A stretch of DNA of 64,000 nucleotides from Strigamia acuminata. Taxonomy: Eukaryota; Arthropoda; Chilopoda; Geophilomorpha; Linotaeniidae. The position numbers and the translations under genes were made by a program. The notes beneath the pieces were generated by a model. The model saw nothing but the letters and a program-made list of their open reading frames with translations, did not search any database and was not told the DNA's origin. The stretch covers positions 7,847,601-7,911,600 of the forward strand of contig OX442324.1 in the NCBI GenBank assembly GCA_949358305.1, in the 5' to 3' direction. Of this stretch, positions 21,249-34,836 are shown piece after piece (position 1 is the stretch's first letter; each line of letters begins with the position of its first letter).

Positions 21249-21329
21249 TGTTGGTATTTGGAGCAGGCATATGGTGTCGGTCAGCTAAAGTCGCGTGTTT
21301 TCGGTTAAATGCGACTGCGATACATCAAC
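21249..21329 (+). repeat. Solo LTR X, left part
   Basis: First 81 bp of an LTR starting TGTTGGTATTTGG, with TSD AAAAC at 21244-21248. The remaining 396 bp lie at 34837-35232, beyond Gypsy-B. The TGTTGG start and 5-bp TSD fit copia, and the AATAAA signals in the distal part indicate plus orientation. No internal sequence of this element is present. Confidence 0.8.
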
Positions 21330-22348
21330 TGTCGCGCTCAACTCTAACCGTCGCTAACTCGTGGGTTGATTACTTAATTCGACTAACTCACTACCGCTTT
21401 GCTCAAGCGGTTTACCCAAAGAAATGATTACACAGATATAAAAGGTAAAATATAATATAGATTTATTCTGTGGGACAATGTACAGATATATCTTATATAT
21501 ATATATATATAAAAGGTAGGTAAAAGGTAAATCGGAATGGGTGAAGGGAAATGGAAAGGTAAAGGTATGATGAAAGCTGGCTGGAATCGGCGAGGTCGTC
21601 TGTTGTCTCGGTCGTGTCCAAGATGGCGTCCTCGTTGTGGCAACGTGGTGTCGTCTTGGGCCGGCGTGGCAATATGGCGTCCTCGGCTCGTCTCTGGCTG
21701 GTCCTTCGGGCTCACGCTGGTCGGGCGCGAGTGAATGCTTAGTTAAAAGGCTTACTTCGGGCTGTTGTCTAGGTTTTTGTGTGGTGTCCGGCGATCACAC
21801 AGCGGCGGACTCTTCTGGCTCCCGGCGGTCACACAGCGGCGGGAACGCTCGTCGTGGTTTTACTGCAGTTTAGGCTTGTGCGACCGTTTGTCTGCACAAC
21901 TCGCTAAACTGGAGTGGTTTTTACTATTTCTAGCTGGTGTGCTAAAATAGTGTGGTAATCTTATCTCGCAGGTTACTCTGCGGAGTTTGACACTGACCAA
22001 ACGTACTCACGGTAAATTGTCCTTTGTCCTTGGTCAATCCCAGTATATTTACTTGGGCCTGATCTTGTAGGACGACGGGTTTACGTGTGTTTCTCGTTTG
22101 ATGGTTGTGTTGGTTCTGCCCGCTCAGTGCAAGGCACATTCCTTTGCACAAAGCGGGGTTGACAGGTGACCGGAATCACCCAATGGTGGGGTGGACGAGC
22201 CATCCCCACTCCCTCAGGGCAGACGCCTGTCCATTGACTAGATGTCAATGCACTGAGGGAAGGGAGACGCGCTTGCGGCTCCCCTTACACCCGAAACGAG
22301 GTCACGAGAGAAACTCTTCGTTGACCCCGGTCCAGTCGGGTCACAACA
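21330..22348 (-). repeat. Gypsy-B 3' LTR
   Basis: 1019 bp, top strand TGTCGCGCTC...GGTCACAACA. It contains a (TA)n run at about 21493-21512. Several ORFs of 60-95 codons in it are repeated in the other LTR simply because the LTRs match. Confidence 0.95.
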
Positions 22349-22384
22349 CTTCCCCCTCCGAGCTCAGACCGTGGGGCTGAGCGA

Positions 22385-25150
22385 TCACTTCTTTCCTGGG
22401 GGACCCGACACTGAGTCCGTCACCTGGGCGTAACTCACTCCAGGGACAGGCGGTTGAGTGCCGGGTGGCGCGGGTAGATCGCCTACTAACGCCGAGGACC
22501 GATCTCGGGGGTCCTCATGCTCCGTAATGAAGCATAATGCATGGCCGTCAACTGGCTCATGCGGGGCACGCGTCCTCTCGTGTAACCAAACGCTCGGGAT
22601 GTAGGCGGAGAAGCCGGTGTTCGTATGCCGGATGGCATTGGCTTCCGCTGGCGTCACTGGCACACGGTGGGCTCTCAGCAACCTCTGGTGGAAGATGAGG
22701 TCTCTAGTCTTCCGGATCTGGTTGTGAAGCCAGATGAAGACTGATTTGCCTTTGTCCCGCTGCGCGAGGATAAACCTCCTGGTCGCCGTCGTCATCGAGA
22801 GATGGGGAAACTCTTCGATGATTCGCCCGTAATAGTCTGGCGGAGGCGGTGCCGGCTTCGGCTTCTGGGTGGCCGCGGGAATAGCGGCTTGCGTCGTTGT
22901 CGCCGCTCGGGCCGGTGAGGTCCCGGGCGGTGTCGGCTTCGTTTGCTCGACGGACCTGACGGGTGGCGTTCGGCACAGCAAGCGCTTTGGTTTACCCGCC
23001 ACTTCGAACAGGGCGGGTCCTTGCGGGGATATCTCCGCAGGCATCGGTGGCGGAATCGGAACTCCGCTCGTCGGCGAGATCACCATTTCTACATCCTCTG
23101 CCGATTCTTCCGTCTGGATGGTCAAGGCGCGCAGTTGTTGGGTAGGCGCCGCTGTCCAGGTGGCGGAGGTATAACGAAACGCCGTGCTTCGCAACTTGTA
23201 CCCCTCAAATTCGGGGTTTACCACATCCCTGGTTAGCTCGTACCGAGTCAACACAGGGTCGGGCAGAATGGAGCTCCACTCTGCGAGGAGTGCACGGGGA
23301 ACCTGTACACCCTCTCTGTCCACGACAGACCATGCGGCCATCGCCTGACGCCCTTCTCCGAAGAGTGCTGGGGTTAGCAGCTGCATCATGACCTTGGTCA
23401 ATGATAGCTGTAGGCTGCGACGATTCACTGGATTCGATCGCTCCGAATCCGCAGTGAAGGCACACGAGAGCTTACTCATCATCGCCGTTGCCCATTCGAT
23501 GAAATATCGCTGGGCCTGATCCACACCTCGCAAGGCGGGCGCGGAGACTCTTGGGTCTTCCATCACGAAGCGAAACGCTGAGAGCTCGGAGATAGTCGGA
23601 TTGGCGGCTTCTCTCGCGAGTCGCGCTTCTTCGTCTCGCCTCTCGAAAAACAGGGCCGAGGAACCGGATCGGGGTTGGCTCGGCCTGTAAATGCCGGTCA
23701 AATTGGCTCGACATTCCTGCGCAATGCTCTGCCCAACGGGGAGAGGGACTGAGCGGTCGGTGGGTAAATCCGGCGGATCGCTCGAATTCAACAACGACGG
23801 CGGCGGCAGGTTCGGAGGCGGCTGCGTCTTGGTCGGCAGCGTCGGCGTCGGCAGCGGTGGTGTTGGCTGCGTCGGCGGTGGTGGCGTCTCCGTCGTCTGC
23901 ACTCCAGTCATTGCGACTTGGAGCGCCGGGAGATGTTGTCCGGAGCCTGAAGGCTGCACGATGGCGGTTGGCATGCCATCGGGTCGTGGTCGCGAATTAA
24001 TGTAGTCTGCGAGCCACCTTGCCACCTCGTGTGGGGTCACCTTCCCGTCGGTGACAACACCCATCTTCCTGGCGTGTTTCATCGCGGGATCGAAACGTGT
24101 CAGTTTCGTCCGCTTCATCTGAGTCAGAATCTCGCGAAGGTCCCGCGTATCTGCCGCTGGGACGTTTCGCTCACCTGACTGGCTACCACCTCGTCGACCC
24201 GCTCTCTTGGAGGCGTAGGCGGGTTCGGGGATGGGACGGCCCCGAGCTTCGCACCTCGCGAAGTATCGCTCTTTGCGATCTTTTTTCCGCTGCTCGCGAT
24301 GAGTCAGCGGACGTCTAGAAGTGCTGGGACGAGAGACTCGCTCTTCGTCACCAGACATCCAAACCTCCTTGCACTCCTTACCGTCTTTAATCTGACGGTT
24401 TATGAAAATTCGCGGTCGGGAATACTGCGAAGGGTCACGCACCGTACTAGTGGATGGCCCAGCTTCGTTGCCTTCAGTCGTGTTTTGAGCGACACGCTGC
24501 TTCTTGGTTGTCGCTGGGGAACGCGACTGGCTGTCCCCGGCGCCTTTGGAGCGCTTGCGCTTCCGCGGGTAGCTGCTCTTGGGCCCCAAAATCCCCAGGT
24601 AGTGGAGCTGCCACATCTCGGCTTGGGACGTCAAAATTCCCATCCGAGGTCTCCACTGGGGCGTACTCTCTCCCAATCGCAGCCTCTCAAACCACAGATG
24701 AATATCATCCGCGGTCATCCCCTCGTTTTGGAGGATGCGCTCGGCCACTGCCGTAGCGGTATCCACCAGCTGTTGTCTATAATGCTGGTAGATGGCCTCA
24801 CGGGCCTCTTCTGTCTCGGCTGCTCGCCACGCATGCAGCACGTGTTCCTCCGCCGGGTTGCCAGTGTACTGACTTGACAATCCGGGGTGGAAAATCGGCG
24901 ATTTCGGGTCATCGTCACGAGCTAACTCTGTGGCGATGCCTTCGCGCATTCCCTCCGGGAACGTATCCAGGAGCGTGCAGTCTCGTACCCAACGTCGGGC
25001 GATGCATCGGGAATGTAGTATTCGCAGGCGCCAAGGGTCGGCGTCTTCGCCGAAACATCGTCGGTAAAAATCGGGCAGCGCGCCTCGAAATATCCCGCCA
25101 CGAGTGATGCAAGCGGGGTCTAATGGTCCCCATGTTTTACGTAGTGCCAT
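22385..25150 (-). CDS. Gypsy-B ORF3, unknown protein in the env position
   Basis: A 921-residue protein from the ATG at 25150-25148 (MALRKTWGPLDPACITRGG), downstream of pol where errantiviruses carry env. I recognise no family. The N-terminal ~200 residues are mixed helical sequence (YFRRCF-like and IHLWFERLRLG segments). A basic cluster PRKRKRSKG near residue 205 looks like a nuclear localisation signal. A charged, serine-rich stretch follows, then a long proline/threonine-rich linker, then a C-terminal region with folded-looking segments (FRFVMEDPRV, FIEWATAMMSKL, SVFIWLHNQIRKTRDLIF). There is no signal peptide, furin site or membrane segment, so it is not an envelope protein. The ATG immediately follows a polypyrimidine tract plus CAG, a strong splice acceptor, which suggests translation from a spliced RNA. 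The frame is open 8 codons further upstream, without an ATG. Confidence 0.85.
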   Translation of the reverse strand: MALRKTWGPLDPACITRGGIFRGALPDFYRRCFGEDADPWRLRILHSRCIARRWVRDCTLLDTFPEGMREGIATELARDDDPKSPIFHPGLSSQYTGNPAEEHVLHAWRAAETEEAREAIYQHYRQQLVDTATAVAERILQNEGMTADDIHLWFERLRLGESTPQWRPRMGILTSQAEMWQLHYLGILGPKSSYPRKRKRSKGAGDSQSRSPATTKKQRVAQNTTEGNEAGPSTSTVRDPSQYSRPRIFINRQIKDGKECKEVWMSGDEERVSRPSTSRRPLTHREQRKKDRKERYFARCEARGRPIPEPAYASKRAGRRGGSQSGERNVPAADTRDLREILTQMKRTKLTRFDPAMKHARKMGVVTDGKVTPHEVARWLADYINSRPRPDGMPTAIVQPSGSGQHLPALQVAMTGVQTTETPPPPTQPTPPLPTPTLPTKTQPPPNLPPPSLLNSSDPPDLPTDRSVPLPVGQSIAQECRANLTGIYRPSQPRSGSSALFFERRDEEARLAREAANPTISELSAFRFVMEDPRVSAPALRGVDQAQRYFIEWATAMMSKLSCAFTADSERSNPVNRRSLQLSLTKVMMQLLTPALFGEGRQAMAAWSVVDREGVQVPRALLAEWSSILPDPVLTRYELTRDVVNPEFEGYKLRSTAFRYTSATWTAAPTQQLRALTIQTEESAEDVEMVISPTSGVPIPPPMPAEISPQGPALFEVAGKPKRLLCRTPPVRSVEQTKPTPPGTSPARAATTTQAAIPAATQKPKPAPPPPDYYGRIIEEFPHLSMTTATRRFILAQRDKGKSVFIWLHNQIRKTRDLIFHQRLLRAHRVPVTPAEANAIRHTNTGFSAYIPSVWLHERTRAPHEPVDGHALCFITEHEDPRDRSSALVGDLPAPPGTQPPVPGVSYAQVTDSVSGPPGKK

Positions 25151-25191
25151 CTGGAAGGATGGAGAAATAAACAATTAATAACAAGTTAATA
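25151..25191 (-). promoter_or_regulatory. Predicted 3' splice site for ORF3
   Basis: On the element strand TTTATTTCTCCATCCTTCCAG ends exactly before the ORF3 ATG. A branch-point-like TATTAAC lies about 34 nt upstream (complement of 25185-25191). Errantivirus env is made from a spliced RNA with a similar acceptor. I could not identify the donor. Confidence 0.6.
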
Positions 25192-26563
25192 TTTAAATAC
25201 GTAGATAAATGGTTGGTTTCGAGGGACGTTGCCAGTACGTGCAGCCGTCCGTCGAGACCGATTCCTGTCTATCGGTGCAAACGTAGGACGAATTGTCCCT
25301 CGTCGGATAGAAAAAGAGAAGTCATCACGTGAAAAATCTGTCTCATGTCCAAAACGCACAGCGAGACGGAATCGAGCCTTTAATCTGGATTCTTATCATC
25401 AGATTTTACTTCAAATTAATTCTAACATTAATTAGAACATTACTAATAATTAAATTAATAATTATCAGTCATTCGTAAAAAGAATTCGTCGGGTGTAAAT
25501 TATTACTAAAATCGCACAATAAATGTGCTTGTCGAAATGTTATTAAATAAATAAACCTAATAAAGAATTATTCCGAAGTCGGACTTTGTCTAATTTTTAA
25601 AAAAGTTAAAGTCAAATTAAATTTATCCAACACACCGAAAAATTCATCGTACGAATGTTAAGTTGCATCAATTTGATGCGTCAAATTACTTGTGGAGAAA
25701 AAATATTCTTTTACAGAATATTCTCCCCTTGTCATAAAATTATCTATGGCTCGAGCCCATTGTCTCGCTCGTGACTCAAGTCATGAGGAATTTTCGAGAC
25801 GCGAGGCGACGTGAAGTCTGCGCTCGCACCTCGAAAACAAATTAACAAGGAAAAAAAATACGATCGTGTGAGCGATCGCGGTTAATAATTAATTATACGC
25901 TATTTCGAGTGCAAAGCACTCATGTCAGGTATTAGTCAACAAAATTTCTTCTTCAGCAGCACGGAACTAGTTCTCATGTGCCGATGCCGACTTCTACCTG
26001 ATCGGGCTGGACTTGGTTTACATCGCGGTCCCAGTTTTCCTCGTCCTCGTGCTCGATGGCCAGCACGTCGTTCTCTTCCTCGTCCATGGCGAGGAGCGCG
26101 CACAAAAATCTCAATCACGATTTAAAAAGGATGATAAAACTATCTCAAAAACTCGGTGAAAAACTCGGTAAAACGTTAAAAACGAGGATCACGCACGAAT
26201 GCAGCGATCAGCTGTGAAAAGCGGAAGTCTGTGTGAACACGAGGTAATCGCGATGGATTCTGGGTAATATACTCCAGAACCCGGGTGTTTGAGACTAGTG
26301 CGCACCTACCCGTGCGCATGTTACGCTACGGGTCTCCTTTGTTCTCACTCCCGTGCGCGATTGCTGCTACGGGGTCTTTTGCACGCGGTATCCGACCCGT
26401 GCCGATAATTTTGCTACGGGTCCCGCGTTTCCACGCCATCTCGTGACGCGAATTCGACCGATATCCGCTTTGTTGGACTTAGCGAAATTTTCTGCGACGT
26501 GATGGCTTGCACTATCGGTCGATTACATTTATTTTTAGTGCCGCCATCGACTCGTAATTTATT
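25192..26563 (-). other. Gypsy-B pol-ORF3 intergenic region
   Basis: About 1.37 kb without a supported gene. The ORF3-proximal half (25400-25900) is AT-rich. The pol-proximal part is GC-richer and holds three tandem stem-loops (26308-26421). It resembles no other part of the window. Confidence 0.6.
26308..26421 (-). repeat. Three tandem stem-loops after Gypsy-B pol
   Basis: Three successive units spaced 42-45 bp pair a CCCGT arm with an ACGGG arm: 26308-26313 with 26328-26333, 26350-26354 with 26369-26373, and 26395-26400 with 26416-26421. Arms and spacing are kept while loops differ (GCGCATGTTACGCT, GCGCGATTGCTGCT, GCCGATAATTTTGCT). They would form RNA hairpins in the genomic transcript. 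Confidence 0.6.
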
Positions 26564-29500
26564 TTACTTCTTTCCTACGACCTTTCCGCCTTTTATGAAC
26601 GGATTATCTCTTTTTGGTCGCAGGTTACGGATCGAGGCAGGTACGATATTTTTTGTTGTTTTTTGTGTCTGTACCTCCTCATTATTGTTTTCTTTTTTAT
26701 CCGTGTTTTTTGTGTTTGTTTCAGGAGTTTCTCCTGTTTCCCCCCCGACCAAAATTGGATCCGGAACGGATTCAACTATCTCGTTTACCGGAGGTGAAGG
26801 GGCGTCGAAATACTCCTCGTTGTCACTTGGCGGTGCTTTTTCCGACTCGCCAGCGAACATATCGACGATTTGGCCGTCAGTTTTAGACTTGACTTGGCCT
26901 TTGGTCCACATTTCTTGCGGGAATTCCGGAATGTACGGAGTTAACTCTCGTACTTGTATCGACTTATGCTCGGTGTTGTCCTCGAGCTTGCGTAATTTAT
27001 ACGCGTTACCGCCATGCTTGCCGATGATCACATACGGACCATCTCTCTTGTCGGCCAAGCTGGCGGTGATTCCTCTCGCTGCATTTGAGAGGATGTGTGT
27101 GTCCTTCCACACTAAATCATTGTTCTCGAAATTCACAAATTTTCCACCGCTTTTATCTTGTAAAATGCGGTCGCGCATGTTAAAAATGTGCGCCATCATA
27201 TGTTTGTATGTGCTCGAAATTGTTTGCTCCAATTTATATACATACTCATGTGGTTTCTCTGGGTCCACCACATTTACCGACTCTGCCACTCGTGGGTCCC
27301 AAGGCACTCGTAGCTCTCGGGCGAAGTTGAGGTAGGCCGGAGAAAAATCTCTCGTCCTCGAGACTGTTGTTCGTATGCTGAACGCGATCTCCCTCAAGTA
27401 TTCATCCCACCTATTGTGGATGTCAGTGAATATGCTTAGTGCATATTTAATGTCCCTGTTGAGTCGCTCAACGGGATTTGTTCTGGGATTGTAGGTCGAA
27501 GTATGTGACGCCACAATCCCGAATTTCTCACAAAACTTACCCCAAATTTTCGAGATAAATTGGGGTCCGTTATCGGATATAATTTTACGTGGAAATCCGT
27601 AACGTAACGCCACGTCGTAGATACATTCAACGATTTTCTCTGCTGAAGGTCTAGCGACGGCGTACAACTCGGGCCAACGAGTTGCCACGTCCATTATAAC
27701 GATAATGTACGCATTTTTATTTCCCGTAACGGGTTTTGGGCCCATCACATCGACACTTAAACAATCAAAAGGCGCGTAAGGCCCTAAGAAAATAGTTTCG
27801 AATGGTGATTTACTCCTCGGCTTGCACGCTTGACATCGCTGACATTGGTGGACAAAAAGAGCAATATCTTTTTTCATCCCTGTCCAGTGAAAAAGCTGTG
27901 TAGCACGATAGAGTGTTCTGCTTACTCCCGCATGGCTCGCAAGCGGGTGCCCGTGTAACAACCACAGCACGCGACCGATTAAGGAAGCAGGTATTACTAC
28001 CTTTACTGCGGTGTCCGATTCACTCAAGTCATCTTGGTGATTTGGGTGATGTTTCACTAAAAGGCCGTCATCCAATAGGTAATCTATGGATTCGTGTGCA
28101 TAACGACGCTTCTGCCTTCTGGTTAGATTGGGCGGATATTTTCCTGTCAGTACGAATCTAGCTCTGTCCTGACATTTCTTGTCTAATTTTTGTTGCACAA
28201 TTATTTCCTCCCTTGTCGGGGGACTGCTTTGCATCTGCTCGCCGACATGAGCGTGGAAGGCGCTTAGAAGCGGGTCATTTATTCTCCGCTCTAGCTTAAA
28301 TTCCTTCCTTGCATTTGGGTAATTGTCAGCAGCTGGTTGGTATAACCGCGTCCAAAATCCACAGAATTTTACATCTGCCGGAGACGCGGTGGGAATTTCA
28401 TTCATCTTCCTTAAATCCCAACGGTGACAACTCGTAGGGCAATAAATGATGCGGGAGTCATCCTCGCCATCATCGTCAGCGTCGATTGGATCTGACACTG
28501 GTGCCCGTGACAGAGCGTCAGCCACGACGTTATATTTGCCGGGCTTGTATTGAATGGTCAAGTCGCATGCCATCAGTTCTAACTGCCATCTGGCTAGTCG
28601 ACCGGCTGGCTCTTTTAATTTCATCAGCCATTGTAACGCTTGATGATCTGTGTGGACCACAAATTTGGTATATTCGAGATAATCTCTGAATTTCCTTATG
28701 GCCCACACAACGGCCAAACACTCCAACTCGGTGGCATTGTAATTCTTTTCAGCGCCTTGGAGTTTGCGACTTATAAACATGCACGGCAGGTCTTGTTCGA
28801 CTCCGTCGCGCACGTGTGTTTGGAGCAACGCCGCTCCTAACCCAACTCTGCTGGCGTCCGTGTGTAATATGAACGGCCGGTTTAAGTCGGGTAGAGGCAT
28901 TACGCCGACTTCCGTCAGCATCCTCTTTATTGCATTAAATGCGATGTTGCACTCATTTGACCATACAAATTCGTTTTCATTCTTCAGGAGGTCGGTAACT
29001 GGGGCTGCCACTTCAGCTAGACCCGGTAGCAACCTGCCGAAGAAGTTTATCATTCCCATAAACCGTTGGACACCTTTAACGTCCTCGGGTGGTGGGAAAC
29101 GATTAATCGCATCGATTTTTTCGGGGCCAATAGCTAAACCATTGACTCCAATGCGATAACCCAGGAAGGCAAGCTCCTTTCGACAGAACTTGCTTTTGCC
29201 CGGATGCACGTGTAACCCAGCTTTTGCCAGCCGGGTGAGCACTTGGTCGATGTGCTCAATGTGCTCTTCGAATGTTTTAGAGGCAATAACTATGTCATCT
29301 AGGTATGCCCACACAAACTGATGCAGGATATCACCCAATACGCTTTCGATTAGTCTCTGAAAGGTACTGGGAGCATTCACTAAACCAAATGGCATGACGT
29401 TGAACATCAACCGTCCAATTGGCGAGTAAAATGCTGTTTTTAACTTATCCTCTGGCCTCATCTCAACTTGCCAGTATCCCTTCGACAGATCCATCGTCGT

Positions 29501-30634
29501 AACCCAAGAAAAGGGGCTAAGCTCTCTCAAAATGGATTCGATAGACGGCATCTGTATGGGATCTATTTCTGTCACCGCGTTTAATGGGCGGTAATCAATG
29601 CATAGGCGTGGGTCCGAGCCCGGGCGCATCACGAGCACAACTCGCGTCGCGTATTCTCCCTGGGCCTCGGAGACAATGCCACTGTCTAGCATTTCTTGGC
29701 ACATTTTTTGCACTATTTCACGTTTTTGCGGGTTCATTCCCTTATACGCAACTCGTATAGGTTTATTATCCGTCAATTTAATTTCGTGAATAGCCCTATT
29801 CGTTCGGCCCGGTTTTTTCGACAGGATCCCCTCATATTTAAGTAGGACCCTTCGTAGGGCTGCCGCTTCGTTTAATTCTAAAGCGGCGTCGGCGACAAGC
29901 GTTTCCACTACATTGTCCCGTTGCAATTCTGTTACGAATGCTTTAAAATCGTAATCTTGAACGAATTTCTTTAGGCCTTTCTCCCACTGTGTCTTGTCGG
30001 CCGCTTCTTTTACAAGAGCTGGTGGCACGACAATTGCGGGTCTTTCCTTATCATTTCTGATATAATTCCAAGATTTCGTTATTGGATTGGGTTGTATTTC
30101 CATTGACGCCATGAGGTCTAAGCCCAACAGAAAAATTCTGTCGCATGTGGGCAGGACCAGGAAAGGGTGCTGTTCTACTCCTCCGAGCCACTCCATGGTC
30201 AATAATATAACTCCTTTTGGACGCGCCATTCCGTTGGCGGTTTTTAGACGTATATTTTTATTAACGCCTTTTATCTTATCGGTGAGACCCAATGATGCTA
30301 CTATGTCTTCGGAAACGAACGAGCGATCTGCTCCCGAGTCTAGTAGTCCCATAATTTTTTCACGTTCTATTGTCATGGGCAACATACATAGGCGGTTGGT
30401 GTATTCGACCGCCACGTTGCACATGAAAACACGAAATTCTTCTGTGTCTTCGACTACTTGAGGTAATTCTTCAAGCAGTAGGTTCGGTTCTTCCGCCTCA
30501 GCCTCAGCGTTTGCGGTAATTACCTGCAAAGCGTTGTTGGCCCTGTCTTGAATTTGGGCGTTAGCTATGTCACTACCCATTTCTTTGACTGGTGGCGGCT
30601 TATCGAACCCTTTGTTAAACCCCTTCTTCTTCAT
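26564..30634 (-). CDS. Gypsy-B Pol polyprotein
   Basis: 1356 residues from the first ATG, in the -1 frame relative to gag. The frame is open upstream into gag past two slippery heptamers, so it is probably made as a Gag-Pol fusion and not from this ATG. Domains: protease with LLDSGADRSFV (D99); RT with VTTMDLSKGYWQV and YLDDIVIAS (YLDD 444-447); RNase H with ILHTDASRVGLGAALLQ (D593); integrase H2C2 finger (H896, H901, C931, C934); and the integrase core with SVDVMGP (D962), ISDNGPQF (D1021) and E1056 in NPVERLNRD. The C-terminal tail continues through a GPYVIIG segment and an acidic end (DNEEYFDAPSPP). No stop or frameshift interrupts it. It shares its orientation and probably its full-length transcript with gag. 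Confidence 0.95.
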   Translation of the reverse strand: MKKKGFNKGFDKPPPVKEMGSDIANAQIQDRANNALQVITANAEAEAEEPNLLLEELPQVVEDTEEFRVFMCNVAVEYTNRLCMLPMTIEREKIMGLLDSGADRSFVSEDIVASLGLTDKIKGVNKNIRLKTANGMARPKGVILLTMEWLGGVEQHPFLVLPTCDRIFLLGLDLMASMEIQPNPITKSWNYIRNDKERPAIVVPPALVKEAADKTQWEKGLKKFVQDYDFKAFVTELQRDNVVETLVADAALELNEAAALRRVLLKYEGILSKKPGRTNRAIHEIKLTDNKPIRVAYKGMNPQKREIVQKMCQEMLDSGIVSEAQGEYATRVVLVMRPGSDPRLCIDYRPLNAVTEIDPIQMPSIESILRELSPFSWVTTMDLSKGYWQVEMRPEDKLKTAFYSPIGRLMFNVMPFGLVNAPSTFQRLIESVLGDILHQFVWAYLDDIVIASKTFEEHIEHIDQVLTRLAKAGLHVHPGKSKFCRKELAFLGYRIGVNGLAIGPEKIDAINRFPPPEDVKGVQRFMGMINFFGRLLPGLAEVAAPVTDLLKNENEFVWSNECNIAFNAIKRMLTEVGVMPLPDLNRPFILHTDASRVGLGAALLQTHVRDGVEQDLPCMFISRKLQGAEKNYNATELECLAVVWAIRKFRDYLEYTKFVVHTDHQALQWLMKLKEPAGRLARWQLELMACDLTIQYKPGKYNVVADALSRAPVSDPIDADDDGEDDSRIIYCPTSCHRWDLRKMNEIPTASPADVKFCGFWTRLYQPAADNYPNARKEFKLERRINDPLLSAFHAHVGEQMQSSPPTREEIIVQQKLDKKCQDRARFVLTGKYPPNLTRRQKRRYAHESIDYLLDDGLLVKHHPNHQDDLSESDTAVKVVIPASLIGRVLWLLHGHPLASHAGVSRTLYRATQLFHWTGMKKDIALFVHQCQRCQACKPRSKSPFETIFLGPYAPFDCLSVDVMGPKPVTGNKNAYIIVIMDVATRWPELYAVARPSAEKIVECIYDVALRYGFPRKIISDNGPQFISKIWGKFCEKFGIVASHTSTYNPRTNPVERLNRDIKYALSIFTDIHNRWDEYLREIAFSIRTTVSRTRDFSPAYLNFARELRVPWDPRVAESVNVVDPEKPHEYVYKLEQTISSTYKHMMAHIFNMRDRILQDKSGGKFVNFENNDLVWKDTHILSNAARGITASLADKRDGPYVIIGKHGGNAYKLRKLEDNTEHKSIQVRELTPYIPEFPQEMWTKGQVKSKTDGQIVDMFAGESEKAPPSDNEEYFDAPSPPVNEIVESVPDPILVGGETGETPETNTKNTDKKENNNEEVQTQKTTKNIVPASIRNLRPKRDNPFIKGGKVVGKK

Positions 30635-30657
30635 GAATGGCGCAGACGGTCGAGAAG

Positions 30658-33600
30658 TTATTTCTTCGCCGCCTGCGCTGACTCGTTTTTTGACTCGTTT
30701 TTTGCCATGGCGAGTTTAATCTCTGCCATCTGCTTCATTATTGCGTCAAATTTAGCGTCTTCTTTCGCTGTTCTTGGGCACTCATTGGAATAGTGACCCG
30801 GTTGGTTACACTTGAAACAACGAATATTTGATTTGTCTCTTGGGGCTTCAGTCGATTTTTTCTTTTCAGGGTCTGCTTTCGACGGTGGCGTGTAATTTTT
30901 TCGAAAATACTTCGGAATTCGGCCGGCATTTGGTTTTAACCTGGCGCGAAATTCTTCTACCGCTCTATCTCGATGGATGAGATGTACTAGCGGTCCTTCC
31001 TCATCGCAACCCGTTGATAAGGTATCGCGATAGCTTCGTATTTCTTCGTCCGTCGAATAATCGTCTTTTTCTTCTTTTTTGTCTGATTTTCCGGCATCTT
31101 GTCCGGCTTCCTCCCCCTCCTTGACCTCCTCCAGTGTCGCTTGCATGGCTGACGCTGTCGGTGCCTTTTTAGGGGCGGCCAAAGGGTTGGAAGGCAGCGT
31201 GGATGTCAGTTTATTTTTTATTTGTAAACCAACGCTAGCTTCTGCCAGCTCCATTATACCGCTAAGATATTCAGTAGGGCGCATAATTTTATCTGTCGCC
31301 CCATATCTTTCCGCACTCAACTTGAGACGTTTAGCGGTTGCTGCTTTCTCCGCTTCTGGTAAAGCGGAATAATACCTCTTCTCGATATCTATCGTGTTCT
31401 CGAACAGGAAGGCGCTCATCTCCTCGTAGCTGCCTCCTGTCGGTGCCCTTTCTTCAAGTAACACCCGTTGCGAGTACTCCGACAAACCGCCGAGAAAGAA
31501 AAGGTTGAATCCCGTGGCATGAAATTCCATCGGGGCCTTTTCGAACAACAATCTGGCGCGAATGTCGTAATCCATTATGGTTTCACCAGGCATCTGGCGA
31601 AGACCTCGCATCTTTCGGCTCACCTCTTCGGGTGTCTCGCCGTAGCGCAGGTCGAATCTCATTAAAAAGTCGTCCCAATTGACGCCTTTCAATCCTTGGT
31701 ACCACTCACGTGCCGAGCCTGTCATTAGCTCGACAATACCGTGGGTGAGCATGTCTCCTACGGTGGCTTTGGTGGCAGTCTTAATTCGAATTACTTCGTC
31801 AAGGAAGCGATCTCCCGCTTTCCATGACCCGTCGAAACGGTTCTGAATATAAAATTGCCACCTAATATTCCCGGTAACACTCATGGTGTCACGTCGGGAG
31901 ACAGCGTATTTTTTCTTTACGCGGTCGCCAGTGCTACGATTACGATCGTTTCGTTTGCTCAGATCGATTCCCTCGGCCTTCAACGAGCCGAGTAGGGCTC
32001 TTCCAAGCTCTCCCATCGTATACTGCCGACCCGTCGAATCGGTAAACGCGCTTTGTCGGGGAAGGTCCTGAAACTCCTCCCGTCGGTGGTCGCTATTTTC
32101 CGATCGACGTCGTTTCTCTCTATCGCGCGGAGAGTTGGATCTCTTCCGGCGATTACTTGATTTTTCCTTTCGTCTGTCGTCGTTGGATGAGGGGTCGGAG
32201 CTGGGGTCGGGAGACGGTGAGCGGCGTGGCGGGTTGCGCCGTGAAGAGTTTGACTCTTTCCGGCCCCTACGACGGTCGTCACGTTCCCTTTCTCTGCGTT
32301 CATCGCGTTCTCTTTCCCTTCGTCTTTCTCCGGAACCTCTCTCCGAATCGTGATGACTGGGTGCATTTGACTCCAGTCCATCTGACGACGAATCACTATT
32401 TCCGTAGTGAAAATATTTCGGTCTTTCATCGCGTTTGCCTTCTTCTCGCGAAGAGGTGCGATCATGCGATTGTCTCCTTGACGACTCGTCGTCTTTAAGG
32501 ATGGGCACTGGTTGTTGCCACTCAGTCCCTTGTGGATTATCATGCTGTTGGCTTGTGAGAGCTTGCTCTTCATTTCGCCTAGCATTATTAGCGTTGATTA
32601 ATCGCGTTATCGCATTATTTGTGGCTGAATCGAGAGCTTGCATGCGGGGCCGAGTTTGTTGTTCTCTGGCCGACGCATCTCTCTTGCGCGGAGTAGCTGG
32701 TGTTGCTCTCTCCGGCTGGGGTTTGGGTTTGGCCTTCGGCGTGCGCTTTGGGTCTCCCTCTAGGCTCTCGTCGGACAGCTCGGATGAACTGACCTCTGGT
32801 TTGCGGACGGATTTCGGGTCATCTCGTCGCAATCTGGCCATAAATGCTCGCTCTGCTTCTTGTTGCGAGTGGAAAGCATATCGATGTGCTCTCAGGGCTC
32901 GGTCAACTATTTCTACCTCCTCGGGAGTAGTCGGATTGGGCTGGGTTCTGCCGTACTCGAGAGCTTGCGCTTCTCTTTCCGCCAGCTTCCTCCGTCTCTC
33001 GCGAATGGCTTGACGAGCCTCGTTCTCTGCATCCGCTTCAAATTGAGCGGAATCAACCAATTGTTGAGCGTGTGCACCTTCAACAATGGTGATTTGCGGG
33101 GATACACTGTGCGCTTTTAAAGCTGCACGTACGATCTGTAACGTTTCGTACACGGTAATTTTCCCCGTCGGAAGGGTGTATCTCACTCCTTCCGCCTGTG
33201 CCAATTGCATCGCATCAATCAAGGTGCCCGAGACGCTGTAAGGCTGGCTCGAAACACGCTTGACAGAGGATGAGTTGGACTTGTGTCCTTCGGACCTGAC
33301 CGAAGCTGGGCGGCTTTGCGTAATTGGCGTGTTTAGTGCCGAATTAGCGGTCGTATTTGAGGCCGTCTTTTGTATCGGAGACGCTGCTTTCGGACTGCCC
33401 ACCTCGGTGTCGTGCGTTAGACGAGGCGATTGGTTACGGGATAAAACCTCGTTTCCGCTCGTCTCGCCGTCACGGTTAGAACGCGGCAGTTTGGAGTGAG
33501 ATTGCTCTTCACCCCGCTCTGTCTCGTCCAATCGCTGCCTCGTCTCGGTGCGAGACGGGTGCGATGCCTCGGATGCGCTTCTACGATCGGGTTTAGGCTT

Positions 33601-33741
33601 ACGCCGTTTTTGCCTCGCTTCGTGCGCTGAGGCTTTGGGTAAGGGACCTCCAGATCGCAAGTGATAGTCGGCGCCTTTACGACTGCCGGCTCTCTTGTTT
33701 GCGTCGGAGTCGGAATCTGTTACTCGGGTATTATCTGCCAT
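30658..33741 (-). CDS. Gypsy-B Gag
   Basis: A long Gag of 1027 residues from the ATG at 33741-33739 (MADNTRVTDSDSD); the frame is open 9 codons upstream. The N-terminal half is charged and disordered. A stretch of RERERDERRERERDDRR plus RSPSPDPSS and RSNSPRDREKRR resembles the RS domains of splicing factors. A retrotransposon capsid-type region follows (RWQFYIQNRF, GSAREWYQGLKGVNWDDFL, LRQMPGETIMDY). The zinc knuckle CFKCNQPGHYSNEC is near residues 975-988. The C-terminus encodes two repeats of KNES that create the frameshift heptamers. The stop is TAA at 30658-30660. The length is about double that of many gypsy gags, mainly because of the N-terminal RS and linker region. Confidence 0.93.
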   Translation of the reverse strand: MADNTRVTDSDSDANKRAGSRKGADYHLRSGGPLPKASAHEARQKRRKPKPDRRSASEASHPSRTETRQRLDETERGEEQSHSKLPRSNRDGETSGNEVLSRNQSPRLTHDTEVGSPKAASPIQKTASNTTANSALNTPITQSRPASVRSEGHKSNSSSVKRVSSQPYSVSGTLIDAMQLAQAEGVRYTLPTGKITVYETLQIVRAALKAHSVSPQITIVEGAHAQQLVDSAQFEADAENEARQAIRERRRKLAEREAQALEYGRTQPNPTTPEEVEIVDRALRAHRYAFHSQQEAERAFMARLRRDDPKSVRKPEVSSSELSDESLEGDPKRTPKAKPKPQPERATPATPRKRDASAREQQTRPRMQALDSATNNAITRLINANNARRNEEQALTSQQHDNPQGTEWQQPVPILKDDESSRRQSHDRTSSREEGKRDERPKYFHYGNSDSSSDGLESNAPSHHDSERGSGERRRERERDERRERERDDRRRGRKESNSSRRNPPRRSPSPDPSSDPSSNDDRRKEKSSNRRKRSNSPRDREKRRRSENSDHRREEFQDLPRQSAFTDSTGRQYTMGELGRALLGSLKAEGIDLSKRNDRNRSTGDRVKKKYAVSRRDTMSVTGNIRWQFYIQNRFDGSWKAGDRFLDEVIRIKTATKATVGDMLTHGIVELMTGSAREWYQGLKGVNWDDFLMRFDLRYGETPEEVSRKMRGLRQMPGETIMDYDIRARLLFEKAPMEFHATGFNLFFLGGLSEYSQRVLLEERAPTGGSYEEMSAFLFENTIDIEKRYYSALPEAEKAATAKRLKLSAERYGATDKIMRPTEYLSGIMELAEASVGLQIKNKLTSTLPSNPLAAPKKAPTASAMQATLEEVKEGEEAGQDAGKSDKKEEKDDYSTDEEIRSYRDTLSTGCDEEGPLVHLIHRDRAVEEFRARLKPNAGRIPKYFRKNYTPPSKADPEKKKSTEAPRDKSNIRCFKCNQPGHYSNECPRTAKEDAKFDAIMKQMAEIKLAMAKNESKNESAQAAKK
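30685..30703 (-). promoter_or_regulatory. Double A-AAA-AAC -1 frameshift site
   Basis: On the element strand the canonical slippery heptamer A_AAA_AAC occurs twice in the gag frame, at 30703-30697 and 30691-30685, separated by GAGTC. Slipping back one base at either joins gag to the open pol frame. The gag stop follows 24 nt after the second. Confidence 0.88.
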
Positions 33742-33793
33742 TTCTTGCTTTGGGTATGATGTAATCACAGGTTAGAATCAGTTATTCGACTTG

Positions 33794-33811
33794 ATCCCGG
33801 ACAGGCCCCCA
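33794..33811 (-). other. Gypsy-B primer-binding site (tRNA-Pro-like)
   Basis: On the element strand TGGGGGCCTGTCCGGGAT lies 2 bp inside the 5' LTR. It matches the complement of the tRNA-Pro 3' end except for two adjacent bases. The same primer class is used by murine leukaemia virus. Confidence 0.75.
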
Positions 33812-33813
33812 CG

Positions 33814-34832
33814 TGTCGCGCTCAACTCTAACCGTCGCTAACTCGTGGGTTGATTACTTAATTCGACTAACTCACTACCGCTTTGCTCAAGCGGTTTACC
33901 CAAAGAAATGATTACACAGATATAAAAGGTAAAATATAATATAGATTTATTCTGTGGGACAATGTACAGATATATCTTATATATATATATATATAAAAGG
34001 TAGGTAAAAGGTAAATCGGAATGGGTGAAGGGAAATGGAAAGGTAAAGGTATGATGAAAGCTGGCTGGAATCGGCGAGGTCGTCTGTTGTCTCGGTCGTG
34101 TCCAAGATGGCGTCCTCGTTGTGGCAACGTGGTGTCGTCTTGGGCCGGCGTGGCAATATGGCGTCCTCGGCTCGTCTCTGGCTGGTCCTTCGGGCTCACG
34201 CTGGTCGGGCGCGAGTGAATGCTTAGTTAAAAGGCTTACTTCGGGCTGTTGTCTAGGTTTTTGTGTGGTGTCCGGCGATCACACAGCGGCGGACTCTTCT
34301 GGCTCCCGGCGGTCACACAGCGGCGGGAACGCTCGTCGTGGTTTTACTGCAGTTTAGGCTTGTGCGACCGTTTGTCTGCACAACTCGCTAAACTGGAGTG
34401 GTTTTTACTATTTCTAGCTGGTGTGCTAAAATAGTGTGGTAATCTTATCTCGCAGGTTACTCTGCGGAGTTTGACACTGACCAAACGTACTCACGGTAAA
34501 TTGTCCTTTGTCCTTGGTCAATCCCAGTATATTTACTTGGGCCTGATCTTGTAGGACGACGGGTTTACGTGTGTTTCTCGTTTGATGGTTGTGTTGGTTC
34601 TGCCCGCTCAGTGCAAGGCACATTCCTTTGCACAAAGCGGGGTTGACAGGTGACCGGAATCACCCAATGGTGGGGTGGACGAGCCATCCCCACTCCCTCA
34701 GGGCAGACGCCTGTCCATTGACTAGATGTCAATGCACTGAGGGAAGGGAGACGCGCTTGCGGCTCCCCTTACACCCGAAACGAGGTCACGAGAGAAACTC
34801 TTCGTTGACCCCGGTCCAGTCGGGTCACAACA
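33814..34832 (-). repeat. Gypsy-B 5' LTR
   Basis: 1019 bp, partner of 21330-22348. It would drive transcription leftwards. The TSD CAAC follows at 34833-34836. Confidence 0.95.
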
Positions 34833-34836
34833 CAAC

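Follow-up and report, generated by a model that had tools for sequence, protein, structure and literature searches.

Extra open reading frames (ORFs) often occupy the env position, and few of them have been explained; third ORFs without envelope features are already known (PMC5408684, PMC10309623, PMC11952523; statements on other systems follow, here and below, the excerpts available of the papers cited). The closest analogue of the gene described here is CERV, the third ORF of the Caenorhabditis Ty3/gypsy element Cer1, a nuclear, non-envelope protein with a KRKK signal that is made from a spliced mRNA and is needed for export of the unspliced genomic RNA, and whose C-terminal half shares its reading frame with the end of the Gag-Pol polyprotein (PMC10309623). 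In errantiviruses the env exon is joined to a short exon upstream of gag, to an AU dinucleotide or to a site within gag (PMC12992720). The gene considered here, ORF3, lies between pol and the 3' long terminal repeat (LTR) of a Ty3/gypsy retrotransposon on the minus strand (21330-34832) of a 64,000-nucleotide stretch of the Strigamia acuminata genome (contig OX442324.1, positions 7,847,601 to 7,911,600), which we call the window and whose numbering is used throughout; copies elsewhere in the genome carry L numbers. ORF3 is a genuine accessory gene of this element, its exons, one exon junction and its selection all being visible at the DNA level. The family is young, with about 180 start sites in the genome, and as a two-exon gene under selection ORF3 offers a direct approach to the question whether complex, Rev-like control of RNA evolved repeatedly outside retroviruses; it also bears on the way in which an element that retains an intron gets its genome exported.

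In common with CERV, ORF3 occupies the env position, is not Env-like, has a spliced mRNA (for ORF3 on genomic evidence from one copy), an NLS-like motif (NLS, nuclear localisation signal) and several structured domains separated by linkers, and for neither protein, as far as the excerpt goes for CERV, have homologues been found outside its own clade (PMC10309623). The primer sites of both elements begin TGGGGGCC, and TGGGGGCCG is quoted as the predicted tRNA-Pro primer site of the Cer1 family (PMC10309623). Their exons differ: CERV, of 517 amino acids (aa), is encoded by five exons, of which three use the gag frame, whereas the 951 aa of ORF3 come from a local and a large exon between pol and the LTR (PMC10309623), and N-terminal exons in common with gag, a trait of CERV, are absent, as exon 1 lies between pol and ORF3 and exon 2 gave no match to gag at E≤1. 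The errantiviral env-F resembles ORF3 in being the third ORF of a gypsy-type element, placed after pol, with an acceptor at its main exon, but it has a signal peptide, furin site, fusion peptide and membrane anchor, features not seen in our scans of ORF3, and it takes its donor from within or upstream of gag whereas that of ORF3 is local (PMC12992720). The non-envelope ORF3s of bdelloid LTR elements are likewise family-specific, common to several elements and typically expressed from spliced messages, although where the fold is known it is that of a GDSL esterase or a DEDDy exonuclease, neither of which the present ORF3 matched in Pfam (PMC5408684). The sORF1 and sORF2 of the MDG1 group are also accessory ORFs of insect gypsy elements, with sORF1 found in a subnuclear compartment, but they are about 70-110 aa long and mostly upstream of gag, and sORF2, unlike ORF3, is a membrane protein (PMC11952523). 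A parallel with foamy viruses is that ORF3, an accessory gene close to the 3' end, may have an internal promoter, although no sequence relation is shown and this promoter is putative (PMC7828637). Among titles and abstract openings of the open literature, a scope outside which most subscription papers fall, no insect element with this gene was named.

A two-exon gene under purifying selection

The uninterrupted frame of more than 900 codons described in an earlier note on this DNA is present at 22385-25150 on the minus strand and contains no internal stop, whereas 1000 dinucleotide shuffles of the window, read in six frames, gave no run without a stop longer than 381 codons. Its ATG at 25150 follows directly on CTCCATCCTTCCAG, the polypyrimidine tract and CAG seen earlier, and the branch-like TATTAAC is also where it was reported (25191-25185). 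The gene extends beyond that ORF: a second coding exon at 26087-25998 gives a whole gene of 22385-26087 and a product of 951 aa. The intron was predicted from the 1.4 kb gap between pol and ORF3 (GCCATGG start, 30 codons, in-phase GT donor) and the junction was searched for afterwards. With up to three mismatches allowed, the exact exon junction was found at one place in the whole genome, with 0 mismatches, while the reversed-pattern control gave 0. This copy, L028, lacks 25997-25151 but agrees with the window to either side of the gap, the join being placed to within 3 nt by the CAG at both ends. The distance to its 5' LTR is that of a full-length element minus the intron, AGTT at both flanks forms a target-site duplication and its LTRs are identical at 1018 of 1019 sites (the reading covered its two ends). 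Very probably, a long RNA spliced at the ORF3 intron was packaged and inserted to give L028, so that the acceptor proposed at the ORF3 ATG is one that has been used. The donor is that of a nearby coding exon, which lies between pol and ORF3, and the proposal that splicing follows the pattern of errantivirus env found no support; the single junction seen is local and leaves room for a further splice upstream.

ORF3 starts occur at 181 places in the genome (3 mismatches allowed for the start), the acceptor together with the start at 180 and the start of exon 1 at 182. With the acceptor retained at 180 of about 181 sites, unspliced RNA is, by this count, the normal source of inserted copies. Of 51 alignment rows, in which the window is counted twice (as itself and as L018), 49 have exon 1 in frame with the same donor, and the other two are L020, which ends before exon 1, and the spliced L028; six rows carry a 3-nt deletion inside exon 1. 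Within the intron, 5.5% of sites vary in 25601-25800, compared with 11.7% and 10.0% in the neighbouring parts, and this block has a fold z of -2.32 (4 of 200 shuffles folded equally well), and no compensatory pair was found in it; this stretch is a possible RNA retention or export element.

ORF3 is far from being broken in all other copies, with the frame intact in 44 of the 50 aligned, 133 of 150 scored N-terminal matches lying within an open frame of at least 900 aa (by tally of the matches listed) and all 49 scored full-length matches free of stops, although the scored lists favour good copies. The ratio of nonsynonymous to synonymous change (dN/dS) against the window was 0.20-0.37 in 20 diverged copies with 12 to 117 differences each, far below 1, and the protein is under purifying selection, as had been suggested. 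These copies, L034-L053, on which the main counts are based, are 20 of the 22 lowest rows among the scored N-terminal matches; L001-L030, as the best protein scorers, are poor in nonsynonymous changes and therefore biased, and a mixed set of 47 copies gave the same direction (0.34). The alleles in the 20 diverged copies comprise 99 nonsynonymous, 125 synonymous and 2 stops, against 149.2, 69.4 and 7.4 expected under random placement of the same base changes, and the synonymous count was reached in 0 of 1000 simulations; since alleles do not count as independent events, the probabilities from simulation err on the optimistic side, but there is no doubt about how large the effect is.

Constraint is concentrated in four blocks of exon 2 (residues 1-195, 341-410, 491-700 and 786-890) with basic or proline-rich linkers between them, and dN/dS is lowest in the predicted folded blocks. 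Over all alleles the ratios are 0.30 for 1-195, 0.52 for 196-340, 0.29 for 341-410, 0.74 for 411-490, 0.26 for 491-700, 0.38 for 701-785 and 0.14, the lowest, for 786-890. When only alleles present in at least three copies are counted, the ratio climbs to 0.84 in linker 196-340 and to 0.90 in linker 411-490, with the other blocks at 0.18-0.36. The tail of pol gave 0.07-0.32 in 8 old copies.

A hairpin array upstream of exon 1 and the proposed nuclear role

By analogy with CERV, ORF3 may be a nuclear regulator of the element's own RNA with a set of upstream hairpins as its target, a reading to which we give a probability of about 0.4. Nearly all copies keep the intron, implying that packaged RNA is normally unspliced and that the element has both to export RNA that retains the intron and to make ORF3 from RNA that has lost it. 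The mRNA would join the 30-codon exon to the 921-codon exon, and the 951-aa protein would enter the nucleus and act on the element's own RNA, most likely by exporting the intron-bearing full-length form or by preventing its splicing, in the way CERV acts for Cer1. A candidate response element is formed by three hairpins that lie upstream of exon 1 and would be present in the full-length RNA. The PRKRKRSKG cluster pointed out in the earlier note is unchanged in 50 of 50 aligned copies, window included, and five NLS-like motifs (K-K/R-x-K/R), two of them overlapping, are found where shuffles give 0.6, so that by motif ORF3 looks nuclear.

Downstream of pol, three bulged inverted repeats of the form CCCGTAGC-N-GCACGGG lie at 26420-26396, 26373-26350 and 26332-26309, their starts 47 and 41 nt apart. 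The array diverges by 2.3%, against 7.4% just upstream (8 old copies), and as RNA has a fold z of -3.32, with 0 of 200 shuffles equally good. Nine distinct arrays occur among 41 rows, with a C-G to G-C double change in one stem in L057 and an apparent extra middle site in L054. Four sites rather than three are seen at G000:C1:2608944-2609097 and C1:3818028-3818181. The genome holds 850 sites of this type (reversed-pattern control 0), and an Rfam search gave one match at chance level, below the gathering score.

The ORF3 mRNA might begin at an internal promoter near 26240 or arise through a splice to the acceptor-like site at 26212. The stretch 26300-26251, with its TATA-like box, diverges by 0.22% in 18 old copies, while 26250-26201, with the acceptor-like site, is at 3.4% not specially conserved, and conservation of the one and not the other leans towards an internal promoter. 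No copy was seen to carry a junction at 26212, the single exceptional place being a point change, which is weak evidence as such an RNA would lack the primer site.

With an internal promoter, ORF3 could instead be a transcriptional transactivator that binds the three palindromes as DNA and drives its own transcription, for which foamy virus Tas provides the model of action. The palindromes lie about 40 nt upstream of the TATA-like box, array and box are conserved and the acceptor-like stretch just downstream is not, and the spacing of the sites and the nuclear motifs would suit such a protein. The foamy virus internal promoter and tas are a precedent (PMC7828637). On the other hand, sites of the array type are absent from the LTRs, all three sites in the window share the same one-base asymmetry, which is more simply explained as an RNA bulge, and ORF3 has no known DNA-binding domain in Pfam. 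We consider a transactivator somewhat unlikely.

Several points count against RNA regulation as the role of ORF3. The array may be a DNA site, and L057 and L028 each break one pair in its middle site. The strict leucine-rich export signal has no match in ORF3, although seven loose matches occur. The likeness to CERV is one of plan and not of exon layout. The predicted structure, which covers the N-terminal part, is poor (mean pLDDT 50) and unfit for a fold search. The exon junction rests on one copy, and with CAG at both ends a chance deletion between 3-nt repeats could in principle have produced it. Finally, the fusion of ORF3 to Pol described below could indicate a role inside the particle.

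A second family, recombinants and the origin of ORF3

Diverged ORF3 places were located by patterns that exclude common codons. One of these, L073, is 78% identical to the window's ORF3 over residues 774-892, in frame, and the proportions of synonymous and nonsynonymous sites that differ in this block are 0.774 (saturated) and 0.119. When L073 was used as the query, the best 150 of 1160 candidates were scored: by tally, 109 rows at 92-100% identity to L073 form a second family, and 41 rows at 79-81% are the window's own. The L073-like rows lie in open frames of at least 900 aa in 85 of 109 cases, with 1091 and 1093 the commonest sizes, and two of the 85 carry a TAG inside the match. L074, a separate place, is a frameshifted relative. 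A mosaic at G000:C5:12054490-12057300 has a 949-aa open frame in which the N-terminal block is 100% the window's and the C-terminal block 97% that of L073. Together with the conserved array, the second family and natural rearrangements such as this one should help in dissecting ORF3.

On contig C1 below 36.9 Mb, nine of ten second-family rows (by tally) have two or three array sites about 3.5 kb upstream of the C-terminal block, the nearest listed sites to the tenth being 16 kb away. A marker at 26211 and one in exon 1 were each found 182 times, close to the size of the window's family, and both were absent from the C1 places of the second family among the matches listed. The array is thus common to both families almost letter for letter, reflecting either exchange of a cassette, with a boundary within 26309-26211, or extreme constraint on the array; as the loop letters are also common to both, exchange is favoured.

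In L065 and L071 the end of pol runs in frame into ORF3 from about residue 259, without exon 1, the intron and the N-terminal block (from near the pol end to about residue 258), giving open frames of 1377 and 2041 aa with no stop in the ORF3 part. Both have the same junction, at a short similarity between pol and ORF3, and the fusion is probably one event. Their ORF3 parts differ by 21 synonymous and 9 nonsynonymous changes. The unfused L070 is as close to each as they are to one another, making recombination likely, and we claim no separate selection on the fusion. The fusion raises the alternative that the C-terminal half works in the capsid or intasome, the free protein being a second delivery route; residues about 259-921 are the part that runs in frame from pol, and block 786-890 has the lowest ratio of all. 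Only the two places were seen, without an exhaustive search, sharing their junction, and in Cer1 a comparable linkage of the CERV C-terminus to the polyprotein exists alongside the export role (PMC10309623), and we regard a particle or integration factor as unlikely.

Extending the RNA-regulator reading, it is possible, if tentative, that ORF3 represents a new and unrelated family of retrotransposon RNA export or regulatory factors with its own hairpin array, a swappable cassette, recombination within the gene and fusion to Pol. If so, Rev/CERV-type regulation would be a repeated invention in Ty3/gypsy elements.

No relative of ORF3 was found in Pfam, NCBIfam or PHROGs (best E 0.26, 0.12 and 0.26) or among Protein Data Bank sequences (best E 0.7, and none with a two-sequence profile), and the 119-residue L073 block gave at best a PHROG of unknown function (E 0.012). 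Queries with the whole protein, 1-195 and 491-895 returned nothing at E≤1 from a set of 5.8 billion proteins, two of the three over the best 8000 candidates, and viral contigs (including one scan with pol) and prokaryote genomes held no relative; these collections may contain few insect sequences and no positive control was included, so the absence is weak evidence. Exon 2 compared with gag, pol and 320 other frames of the window gave a best E of 0.29, and ORF3 has no internal repeat. The GC content at third codon positions of ORF3 (22385-25150) is 0.647, against 0.507 in gag, 0.492 in pol and about 0.5 in the other element frames measured.

The raised third-position GC hints at a foreign origin, and ORF3 might be a captured host or viral gene that counters silencing and thereby allows a burst; highly diverged alleles exchanged on one backbone would fit an arms race. 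The libraries searched gave no match to env or to a host gene, an outcome that the earlier note had named as a refutation of its view of ORF3 had a clear match appeared, and no homologue appeared in any of the collections; nor does any block show a nonsynonymous excess, and we think a captured gene quite unlikely. An envelope or fusogen with an unrecognised fold is hardly credible, as the earlier view of ORF3 as not envelope-like is borne out by hydropathy and motif scans (not SignalP or TMHMM), which show an acidic, hydrophilic N terminus with an acidic exon 1, no membrane-like segment (highest 19-residue Kyte-Doolittle mean 1.07), no R-x-K/R-R furin site, three glycosylation motifs, and the basic nuclear motifs.

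The element and its surroundings

The window copy has the LTRs, 4-bp duplication, primer site, polypurine tract, CCHC gag and protease, reverse transcriptase (RT), RNase H and integrase order of a Ty3/gypsy element (Table 1). The LTR pair shows 100% BLAST identity over 1020 positions, that is the 1019-bp LTR and one common flanking base, and gag and pol are both open.

Table 1. Features of the Ty3/gypsy element carrying ORF3, in window coordinates.
Feature	Position	Strand	Basis or remark
5' LTR (TG...CA)	33814..34832	-	self-BLAST 100% against 3' LTR; flanks read
GTTG target-site duplication	34833-34836 and 21326-21329		flanks read
Primer-binding-site-like TGGGGGCCTGTCCGGGAT, 2 nt downstream of 5' LTR	33794..33811	-	sequence
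gag, 1027 codons, Retrotrans_gag and CCHC zinc knuckle	30658..33741	-	ORF list, Pfam
pol: protease, RT, RNase H, integrase; -1 frame overlap with gag	26564..30634	-	Pfam, ORF list
Bulged inverted-repeat array, three copies	26309..26420	-	DNA palindrome or RNA hairpin
Most conserved noncoding stretch, TATA-like TATATTA at 26271-26265	26251..26300	-	divergence; possible internal core promoter
Acceptor-like CTTCCGCTTTTCACAG, possible alternative route to exon 1	26212..26227	-	sequence
ORF3 exon 1, 30 codons, GCCATGG start context, phase 0	25998..26087	-	joined to exon 2 in L028
Intron, 847 nt, GTAGAAG...CTTCCAG; branch-like TATTAAC 25191-25185	25151..25997	-	missing in L028
Intron block with higher conservation, possible RNA element	25601..25800	-	variable sites, fold z
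ORF3 exon 2, 921 codons and stop	22385..25150	-	ORF, per-block counts, relatives L073, L065/L071
Polypurine tract GGAGGGGGAAG adjoining 3' LTR	22349..22359	-	sequence
3' LTR	21330..22348	-	self-BLAST, flanks read

The overlap of gag and pol contains two A AAA AAC heptamers, at 30703 and 30691, 12 nt apart (30685-30703), and this doubled heptamer is a possible -1 frameshift site. The 64-kb window as a whole is a nest of young LTR elements, some nested in others, among them BEL/Pao and Copia elements with LTR pairs that are 99-100% identical (starts 6508/12120, 14477/20355, 41002/47446, 48608/61942 and 53779/60546).

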